From positions 1,922,001-1,986,000 of the forward strand of contig LS483371.1 in NCBI GenBank assembly GCA_900475325.1: a stretch of 64,000 bases of DNA, written 5' to 3'. Shown piece by piece: positions 27,971 through 30,753 of the stretch. Every line of letters starts with the position of its first letter. Positions within the stretch are counted from its first letter, which is position 1. Below the pieces are notes generated by a model, which was not told the DNA's origin, did not search any database, and saw only the letters and a list, made by a program, of their open reading frames with translations. The DNA comes from Paucimonas lemoignei (lineage in GTDB: Bacteria > Pseudomonadota > Gammaproteobacteria > Pseudomonadales > Pseudomonadaceae). Position numbers and translations under genes: made by a program.

Positions 27971-29490
<1,520 letters not shown>

Positions 29491-29494
<4 letters not shown>

Positions 29495-29568
29495 CGCGGC
29501 GTCCCCGTACCGTGGGCGCCGAGGCGCTGAACGTTGGTGGAGAAGAGGGCGGCTTTGATAATGATCAT
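29491..29568 (-). CDS. Small ORF (25 aa) overlapping the ilvA start
   Basis: ATG 29568 is preceded by a strong CAGGAG ribosome binding site, better than anything in front of ilvA. The peptide starts MIIIKAALFSTNVQRLG and its TGA overlaps the ilvA ATG in an ATGA arrangement. Third codon positions are mostly G or C, as in real genes here. It probably loads ribosomes that re-initiate at ilvA; with three Ile codons at positions 2-4 it could also sense isoleucyl-tRNA. I do not recognise it as a named protein. Confidence 0.6.
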
Positions 29569-29604
29569 GTCTGACTCCTGGTTCAGGGGGTTGGCCCAGG
29601 AGAC

Positions 29605-29631
29605 AGAAAAAACCCGCCTCTAGGGCGGGTT
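29605..29631 (-). terminator. Attenuator terminator upstream of ilvA
   Basis: On the minus strand AACCCGCC and GGCGGGTT pair perfectly (8 bp) around a CTAGA loop and run into a T-tract. It lies 15 bp after the leader-peptide stop and 36 bp before the small ORF, so it would stop transcripts before ilvA. Confidence 0.92.
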
Positions 29632-29673
29632 GGGTGCACGCGTCGGCTAACCCGCCATGATAGGAATGGCGGT
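29624..29673 (-). promoter_or_regulatory. Pause and antiterminator arms of the ilvA attenuator
   Basis: In transcript order: arm 1 ACCGCCAT (29666-29673) lies just after and among the Ile codons of the leader; arm 2 ATGGCGGGTT (29649-29658) lies at its end; arm 3 AACCCGCC (29624-29631) is the 5' half of the terminator. Arm 2 can pair with arm 1 (pause hairpin) or arm 3 (antiterminator, 8 bp). A ribosome stalled on the Ile codons would cover arm 1 and free arm 2 to sequester arm 3. This matches the classical amino-acid attenuation layout. Confidence 0.8.
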
Positions 29674-29712
29674 AATAATAATCTGGCCGAAGACGTGCTG
29701 ATTTGAGTTCAT
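29647..29712 (-). CDS. ilvA leader peptide (21 aa, Ile-rich)
   Basis: The peptide begins MNSNQHVFG and ends QIIITAIPIMAG, with five Ile in eight residues (11-18) and one Thr, then TAG. It lies just before the terminator and antiterminator arms, with the Ile run placed to position a stalled ribosome over arm 1. No Shine-Dalgarno is visible; the best promoter places the transcript start 2-4 nt before this ATG, so it may be translated leaderless. Its job would be to sense charged isoleucyl-tRNA. Confidence 0.82.
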   Translation of the reverse strand: MNSNQHVFGQIIITAIPIMAG

Positions 29713-29721
29713 GACCCGAAG

Positions 29722-29749
29722 ACTATTTCGGTTGCCTGGGGCAAGTCAA
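29722..29749 (-). promoter_or_regulatory. Candidate sigma-70 promoter of the ilvA leader
   Basis: On the minus strand the -35 TTGACT (29744-29749, five of six) and -10 AATAGT (29722-29727, four of six) are 16 bp apart. Transcription would start near 29715, only a few bases before the leader ATG at 29712. The REPIN at 29761 lies just upstream and limits how far control sites can extend. Confidence 0.55.
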
Positions 29750-29760
29750 GGGGGCGACGG

Positions 29761-29855
29761 CTTGTGGGACCGGCTTTAGCCGGGAAGGGGTAGGTTCATT
29801 CAGTACATCTGCGGGATCCGGGGCGCCGCCTTCCCGGCTGAAGCCGGTCCCACGG
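29761..29855. repeat. REPIN, class ACCGGCTTTAGCCGG
   Basis: Arms CTTGTGGGACCGGCTTTAGC... and the complement (one change, CTGAAGCC) flank a ~41-bp loop. This is a second sequence class, also seen at 38007-38100. It separates the ilvA promoter from the small gene at 29997. Confidence 0.9.
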
Positions 29856-29996
29856 GTTTGCGTGGCTTTTAAATTACCTTTGGTGCGCCACGTATCTTTA
29901 ATCACCGGGTCATTTTTCCTTCACGCTGGCACTTTATGGTGAAGGCCGTGGTCAGTGAATGACGTCATTTAAAGAACAGCCAAGAGGGCACGCGTT

Positions 29997-30083
29997 ATGG
30001 ACGACTATCAAGAAGAATTGCTGGAATATCAGGCTTTTGAACTCGATCCGCTGGAGCCGGCGGATGATGCGACTGAGTTGTAG
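29997..30083 (+). CDS. Small acidic protein (28 aa), hypothetical
   Basis: ATG 29997 has AGAGG seven bases upstream. The peptide starts MDDYQEELLEYQAFELDPLE and ends DDATEL, so 12 of 28 residues are Asp or Glu and none is basic. Divergent from ilvA. Its length is below most gene-calling cut-offs. No function is known to me; the good ribosome binding site and strong composition bias favour a real gene. Confidence 0.5.
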   Translation: MDDYQEELLEYQAFELDPLEPADDATEL

Positions 30084-30168: not shown

Positions 30169-30753
30169 GCGCCCTTACGGCGCGTCACTTTCGAAAAGCC
30201 GGAATGCCGGCCCAGACGAAAGTAACCAAAGCGCTCCCGCTCCTTTGTCCGGGTCTTCGCCAAGGCTCAGACTTCCCTCACTCCGGCATTGCTCCGTGGG
30301 CCGCCGCAATGGGCCATCCATGGCCCGGTGCGGCTAACCCGGCATCCATGCCGGGTTGCCCACTGCGCAATACCTGCGCTCGGCCGGCCACAAGTCGCAA
30401 TTTATGTCGCTCATAAATTTTGCGCAGACCCACAGAATCAAAAGCAGCGTGTGGGTCAGGAAGGAATTGATGCTAAAAATCTGCAAAGCAGATTTGCTTT
30501 TGCCTTTGCTTTTCCTGCCACGATTTCACAGGCGACGCAAAATGCGCGTCGGGAGGCTGAGTGGAGGTGCCGTGGGGTGGGTCGCTCGGCATGGATGCCG
30601 AGCGAGCGCCGTTGGGCCATGGATGGCCCGTCGGCGCGTGCCCGCCCCACGGTGCCGGAGCGAAGGTACCGCCGCGAAGCGGGGGCCGTACGCCAGCGCA
30701 GAGGTTTTGGTTACTTTTGGCACCAAAAGTGACCCGGCCGTCAGGACGGAACC
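30169..30753. repeat. Imperfect inverted-repeat intergenic element (~585 bp)
   Basis: The ends are related in inverted orientation: left GCGCCCTTACGGCGCGTCAC and AAAGTAACCAAAG, right CTTTGGT-type GGTTACTTTTGG and GTGACCCGGCCGTCAGGACG. Both arms carry the palindrome GGGCCATCCATGGCCC or its near copy, and GGCATCCATGCC or GGCATGGATGCC. The same motifs, in the same order, form the longer element at 43189-44127. Open frames crossing it are by-products of the GC-rich repeat. No transposase is present, so it is a non-coding repeat. Confidence 0.7.

Follow-up and report, generated by a model that had tools for sequence, protein, structure and literature searches.

In the attenuator of the thr operon, the leader thrL, which has Ile and Thr codons, precedes thrABC, and in enterobacteria the ilvGMEDA and ilvBN attenuators, each ahead of a whole operon, read Leu, Val and Ile. 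According to the part of the article available to us, 11 of the 32 residues in the leader of one ilv operon are branched-chain amino acids (PMC6123439). A precedent for a leaderless arrangement is trpL of Sinorhizobium meliloti, the RNA of which begins with the leader ATG in the accessible portion of the report (PMC7298713). Here we describe a putative isoleucine attenuator in front of an ilvA gene of Paucimonas lemoignei, located in a stretch of 64,000 nt, called the window below. Leader-peptide attenuators are a known kind of element; what is new is the reassignment of the RNA P9, the probably leaderless design and the set of genes involved.

All elements of the attenuator lie on the minus strand of the window, at 29712-29611, as read from the sequence and the list of open reading frames. 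The leader peptide ORF (29647..29712, minus strand) encodes MNSNQHVFGQIIITAIPIMAG followed by a stop codon. It has 21 codons with Ile at codons 11, 12, 13, 16 and 18, exactly as in the original prediction of a 21-residue leader with Ile at five of positions 11-18, and the control codons are ATT ATT ATT at 11-13. Sequence, folding and covariation define arm 1 (CCGCCAU, 29672-29666, minus strand), the protector and partner of arm 2. Arm 2 (AUGGCGGGUU, 29658-29649, minus strand; folding and covariation) can pair with arm 1 or arm 3 and overlaps the leader stop codon, where an antiterminator arm at the leader end had been expected. Arm 3 (AACCCGCC, 29631-29624, minus strand; folding and terminator scan) is both the antiterminator partner and the 5' side of the terminator, the 3' side of which is arm 4 (GGCGGGUU, 29618-29611, minus strand; folding, terminator scan and covariation). 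The predicted intrinsic terminator indeed has an 8-bp stem and a T-run (29612-29607, minus strand; scan) that overlaps the end of arm 4, and from arm 4 to the ilvA start codon is 116 nt. Folding also predicted an outer stem enclosing 1:2 (29636..29698, minus strand; 29698-29693/29641-29636 and 29690-29686/29647-29643).

The two exclusive pairings proposed for arm 2 were recovered, but not the claim that it pairs equally well with both partners. It forms 7 pairs with arm 1 and 8 with arm 3, and the calculated hairpin energies of −9.7 kcal/mol for 1:2 and −14.2 kcal/mol for 2:3 make the two pairings unequal; that of 3:4 is −13.6 kcal/mol. The pause arm placed over the Ile codons, arm 1, spans codons 14-16, directly after the III run, and the run itself lies outside it. 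The 150-nt region folded better than 200 of 200 shuffled sequences (z −3.77).

An Rfam scan of the whole window matched 29609..29682 on the minus strand to RF00624 (P9) with 91.5 bits, for a gathering score of 43, and E 1.6e-18. P9 was the sole match above its gathering score in 29480-29900, and a riboswitch or T-box identity was rejected since neither was among the five Rfam matches at E up to 1 in this region. The window's genome has one P9 match. Rfam describes the family as 'Pseudomonas sRNA P9', type sRNA gene, and the model spans the Ile codons to the terminator, with the leader start and the downstream gene outside it. P9 reportedly came from a screen for P. aeruginosa sRNAs, in which it is said to have been noted near a threonine dehydratase gene. 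In the titles and beginnings of abstracts covered by our literature search, no paper naming P9 and no description of P9 as an attenuator or of an ilvA attenuator in Pseudomonas was found; a 2004 survey of proteobacterial attenuators may contain an earlier account. From its sequence, we read P9 as the putative terminated product of an isoleucine leader-peptide attenuator. The proposal of an amino-acid attenuator before ilvA is supported, but the arms and terminator were already in Rfam as P9.

In the genus, 109 of 149 genomes had a P9 match at E ≤ 0.001, 105 of 149 had one above the cut-off, and 40 of 149 had no match. Loci were taken from 77 of the 105 genomes, and an IlvA match was found downstream of P9 in each (77/77). 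The core was located in all loci except L082 (76/77), and every core (76/76) had an open in-frame ATG 15-45 nt upstream, with 79 of the 81 ATGs of any frame in this interval being in frame; conservation of the leader frame and arms in relatives, which the original prediction had set as its check, was thereby observed. The distance from the terminator to the aligned IlvA start was 13-181 nt in 75 of 76 loci, the exception being L059, where the match is a fragment. Among 73 single-ATG genus leaders, a set selected for being in frame and including five of the kinase type, the ATG was 33, 30, 27 and 24 nt from the first Ile in 49, 15, 6 and 3 cases, respectively. The first half of the leader peptide is variable and its end usually reads (S/I)IITAI..(L/M)AG. 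Changes at codon positions 1, 2 and 3 numbered 208, 166 and 323 in 168 close pairs of leaders, counts that are supportive rather than decisive because the pairs have common ancestry. ATT accounts for 206 of 226 codons of the first Ile pair (L174 included); the Ile codons in the window's ilvA are ATC (23) and ATT (7). A short ORF with a repeated codon and a conserved frame, as is characteristic of ribosome-mediated leader-peptide attenuators, is thus present.

A consensus scan predicted a −35 box, TTGACT, at 29744..29749 (minus strand), starting 37 nt before the leader ATG. The predicted −10 box, TAGTCT (29720..29725, minus strand), starts 13 nt before the ATG and was chosen from conservation of TAnnnT; the scan instead paired the −35 box with AATAGT at 29727-29722. 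Among 105 unique single-ATG leaders, TTGAC was present at −38..−34 in 93, compared with 0.81 expected from the same upstream regions. TAnnnT at −14..−12 was found in 80 of these 105 leaders, both motifs in 73, and an SD-like 4-mer in 5. TTGAC was missing from the −35 position in all eight tabulated leaders of the SnoaL/kinase-B type (see below) and in some ilvA leaders from outside Pseudomonas. Transcription usually starts 7 nt from the −10 box, and together with the box spacing this places the predicted start at the leader ATG, so that the leader mRNA is, judging by its sequence, probably leaderless. An inverted REP-like repeat pair of the ACCGGCTTTAGCCGG and CCGGCTGAAGCCGGT types is located directly upstream of the predicted leader promoter (window 29764-29853). 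The neighbourhood also holds a 28-codon ORF rich in acidic residues (MDDYQEELLEYQAFELDPLEPADDATEL, window 29997-30083, plus strand), and two Rfam TwoAYGGAY RNA matches just above the gathering score (30298-30360, minus strand, and 30579-30643, plus strand) in a stretch to which no gene is assigned.

The ilvA gene of the window (27971..29494, minus strand) encodes a threonine ammonia-lyase with a PALP and two regulatory Thr_dehydrat_C domains and is the accessory copy of two. The other copy in this genome (G000), at C1:504144-505658, is 98% identical to it, and no Ile leader was seen in the 260 nt before that gene. The description as a stand-alone ilvA was therefore rejected: the window copy is the second of two, and the other lacks the leader. 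The divergent gene adjoining C1:504144-505658 is presumably rpiA; an 80-residue piece of it gave no Pfam match. At the DNA level, identity between the copies is 94.8% across a 1680-nt segment that begins 30 nt inside ilvA and ends 186 nt past the gene end. The leader and promoter fall outside this segment, which would fit copying of the core ilvA in behind an older leader.

Two IlvA proteins at E ≤ 1e-100 were found in 15 of 16 P9-positive genomes, and G085 has one. A comparison set of 20 of the 40 genomes without a P9 match and four with weak hits only contained a single IlvA in each case (24/24; 84-91% identity, next matches 37% or less), and inspection by eye of the 330 nt before these 24 genes revealed no Ile leader with terminator. 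Among the 77 P9-linked ilvA genes, 41 have their stop near 330 aa, ahead of the regulatory domain, and 33 are open to 418 aa or more. Of the remaining three, L010 is cut off by a stop at residue 223, and the matches in L006 and L059 were only partial; L006 and L010 have intact P9 leaders, and their ilvA genes look incomplete. The one short P9-linked IlvA that was scanned contained PALP alone. In the available part of the source, isoleucine exerts feedback inhibition on biosynthetic enzymes that carry C-terminal domains of this sort, and enzymes with only the catalytic domain are of the catabolic type (PMC3901761). On these sequence comparisons, P9 appears to precede an accessory ilvA, not the housekeeping gene.

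Leaders before other genes were first reached via second, weaker P9 hits. Alignment A1 and the covariance model R1 comprise 43 members: 19 Pseudomonas ilvA, 11 SnoaL/kinase B, 11 kinase C and 2 other ilvA leaders. R1 gave one strong match in the window's genome (7.2e-18; next 0.34), the window element being among the 43 that built the model. At E ≤ 0.001, R1 gave 48 hits in 43 of 390 genomes of the order, 6 hits in 5 of 369 genomes of the class and 39 hits in 36 of 398 genomes of the phylum, where the samples overlap, stricter filters were on, E-values are rough and some hits are R1's own building sequences. Most downstream genes were assigned by eye, using the first long frame. The order hits preceded ilvA (14, G833 partly masked), kinase C (21), SnoaL (4), ileS (3), citramalate/isopropylmalate-synthase-like (2) and unclear genes (4; G835:56592, G283, G154:389298 and G813), and the class hits ilvA (1), kinase C (1), SnoaL (3) and GNAT (1). 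In the phylum, they preceded ilvA (7), kinase C (8), kinase B (7), SnoaL (8), thrA-like (7) and unclear genes (2; G1139, and G1175:C6 at a contig end). The leaders found before thrA-like genes, such as MRNHSLTITTIIITTITTGNGAG, are an unplanned positive control, representing the known thr attenuator. At about 56592 of G835 C23, L227 is a decayed type C leader lacking a start codon, and an intact one follows 2 kb downstream. The weak P9 hits L040-L044, L163-L165, L169-L171 and L173-L175 were on inspection chance or unrelated, and the second P9 hit of L037 was a repeated terminator beside masked bases.

Profile checks were done on single members, among them an ilvA from outside Pseudomonas and one thrA-like piece. 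The ileS member matched TIGR00392 with 788 bits (cut-off 621), and the citramalate-synthase-like member scored 634 bits with NF042433 (cut-off 950), ahead of leuA models. The GNAT member matched Pfam Acetyltransf_3, its best NCBIfam match being to the GNAT part of NF040702, an unusual isoleucyl-tRNA synthetase (isoleucine-tRNA ligase with GNAT; 63 bits of 1999). By profile, the SnoaL member is SnoaL/DUF4440 and kinase B is AAA_33; kinase C reached neither the Pfam cut-offs nor the one for 'DNA topology modulation protein'. Four of five AAA_33 kinases matched NF040667, the best with 26.8 of 197 bits, and since these scores are far below the cut-off, the assignment as homoserine kinases was rejected and is kept as a lead only. 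With PADLOC, the type C kinase had a single weak match (mad8, 26 bits) and three other proteins had none, and sequence searches against solved structures yielded marginal hits only.

In some genomes, the SnoaL/DUF4440 gene is in an operon with the kinase; in L151 (1620-2506) and L176 (G241), the SnoaL/DUF4440 and AAA_33 kinase genes overlap by 4 nt behind one Ile leader. Relatives of kinase B are encoded in 318 stretches of the species-genome collection, and among the best 80 of these 318, an upstream, same-strand R1 hit (E ≤ 0.01) was present for 30 and absent for 50. The R1-positive stretches include Pseudomonas nitroreducens, P. chlororaphis, P. protegens, Methylomonas, Methylobacter, Sideroxydans, Silvimonas, a Methylotenera MAG, Pseudacidovorax, a Telmatospirillum MAG, Kosakonia and Enterobacter. 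In all 18 that were read of these 30, the leader frame has Ile beside Ile (in L279, beside Met). The leader before kinase, SnoaL and GNAT genes is more surprising than the ilvA element. We give an even chance to the view that a switch responding to isoleucyl-tRNA-charging stress is distributed across alpha-, beta- and gammaproteobacteria and that P9 represents one of its branches. Such a switch would control Ile supply (ilvA, citramalate-synthase-like), charging (ileS) and two P-loop kinase families, SnoaL/DUF4440 and GNAT genes, which may be undescribed Ile-supply enzymes, e.g., an amino-acid kinase upstream of threonine, or may protect against natural isoleucyl-tRNA synthetase inhibitors.

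The Rfam listing of P9 as an sRNA gene would suit a true trans-acting small RNA with its own promoter and terminator, to which the neighbouring ilvA is incidental. We consider this most improbable, given the ilvA match downstream in 77 of 77 loci (75 of 76 measured at 13-181 nt past the terminator), the protein-like leader frame and the position of related leaders before ileS and other Ile-pathway genes. P9 might have a trans role in addition to attenuation; according to the accessible portion of the report, the attenuator RNA rnTrpL of S. meliloti is able to act in trans too (PMC7298713).

The proposed pairings were evaluated across families in the 43 aligned rows. Arms 1:2 plus 3:4 were paired in 98.0% of cells and had five pairs and 32 cells changed on both sides, and 0 of 500 shuffles were as high on either measure. 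Compensatory changes are thus present in the protector 1:2 and terminator 3:4 over the 43 rows, as in pair 46/64 (AU in 22 rows, GC in 19). The 2:3 pairing was formed in 87.4% of cells versus 32-58% for slid partners; its double changes were confined to one pair (UA in 5 of 43 rows), with 39 of 500 shuffles as high, and its pair 68/100 was unpaired in 35 of 43 rows. The covariation of arms in relatives that the original prediction asked for was seen across these 43 divergent members. It stems from distant members, not from the Pseudomonas ilvA leaders alone, and no double changes in 1:2 were found within the 19 aligned Pseudomonas ilvA leaders. The covariation, together with the promoter spacing, frame and codons conserved directly upstream, leaves hardly any probability for a plain terminator of upstream transcription accompanied by a chance ORF, even if the terminator on its own is of a common kind.

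Stalling was simulated for 112 of 113 elements (L174 was dropped), with the RNA masked up to a point 13 nt beyond the A-site codon's first base. The stall score is the chance that arm 3 finds an upstream partner while arm 4 is still absent, minus the chance that arm 2 is already taken. Counted from the first Ile of the pair, the mean score was 0.06 at −3, 0.12 at −2, 0.49 at −1, 0.81 at 0, 0.91 at +1, 0.96 at +2, 0.97 at +3, 0.55 at +4 and 0.22 at +5, and beyond that 0.16-0.26 up to +9. In this model, stalls antiterminate mainly around the conserved Ile pair, where a stall would free arm 2 for arm 3. Once arm 4 was included, the most stable equilibrium fold of the stalled state was still the terminator, so that antitermination would depend on folding order. 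Ile made up 332 of 641 productive codons compared with 97 of 1493 others, an enrichment that is partly built in because the choice of elements demanded two adjacent Ile codons.

The same attenuator might have threonine, the substrate, or slow translation in general as its main signal instead of isoleucine. Most leaders have a Thr codon after the Ile run, inside the productive window (97/641 productive codons), and R1 also finds thrA-type leaders rich in Thr codons. Moreover, Ile-Phe replaces the Ile pair in three type B leaders (L333, L336 and L338), which with L038 (Met-Ile) count against a pure Ile rule. On the other hand, the 332 Ile codons among the 641 productive ones, the many type C leaders without Thr in the productive window (RIIIIP-stop), and the presence of ileS among the genes, with no threonyl-tRNA synthetase seen among the hits, make this reading unlikely.

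We consider it very probable that the element acts as a ribosome-mediated transcription attenuator, with charged tRNA-Ile as its signal and the second ilvA as its target. The leader frame, Ile codons, conserved pairings, terminator, stall geometry and promoter spacing, as seen by sequence and comparison, point to this mechanism, for which we infer the start site, translation, folding order and isoleucine response. RNA polymerase would start at or beside the leader ATG, and the leader would therefore be translated from a nearly leaderless mRNA. When isoleucine is sufficient, the ribosome would get to the UAG codon and cover arm 2, the 3:4 terminator would form, and termination would release the P9 'sRNA', about 100 nt long. 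If charged tRNA-Ile is scarce, the ribosome would halt at codons 11-13 and cover arm 1, allowing arm 2 to join arm 3 ahead of the synthesis of arm 4, and transcription would continue into ilvA. If the leader is untranslated, 1:2 would form, leading to termination.

With this reading, an RNA filed as an sRNA gains a testable function, and a probably leaderless attenuator is added in Pseudomonas. One genome would keep an ilvA without leader beside a spare ilvA that is switched by starvation, and in many relatives the spare ilvA is without the feedback domain. The common leader would tie genes of unknown function to isoleucine or isoleucyl-tRNA stress, making their roles searchable.

Compared with known systems, RF00624 (P9) shares its sequence and two hairpins with the window element (91.5 bits), but is an sRNA gene in Rfam, with the leader start and gene outside its model. 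S. meliloti trpL is leaderless, with an RNA starting with the leader ATG, whereas it senses Trp and its start was mapped, according to the part of the report available, while that of P9 is predicted (PMC7298713). The thr attenuator shares an Ile/Thr-codon leader and protector, antiterminator and terminator arms; in contrast, almost every codon of the P9 leader within the productive window is Ile, the gene is a single ilvA, and the P9 promoter puts the ATG at the predicted start. The ilvGMEDA and ilvBN attenuators have a leader peptide rich in the regulating amino acids and exclusive folds as well, whereas P9 would read Ile before one accessory gene.
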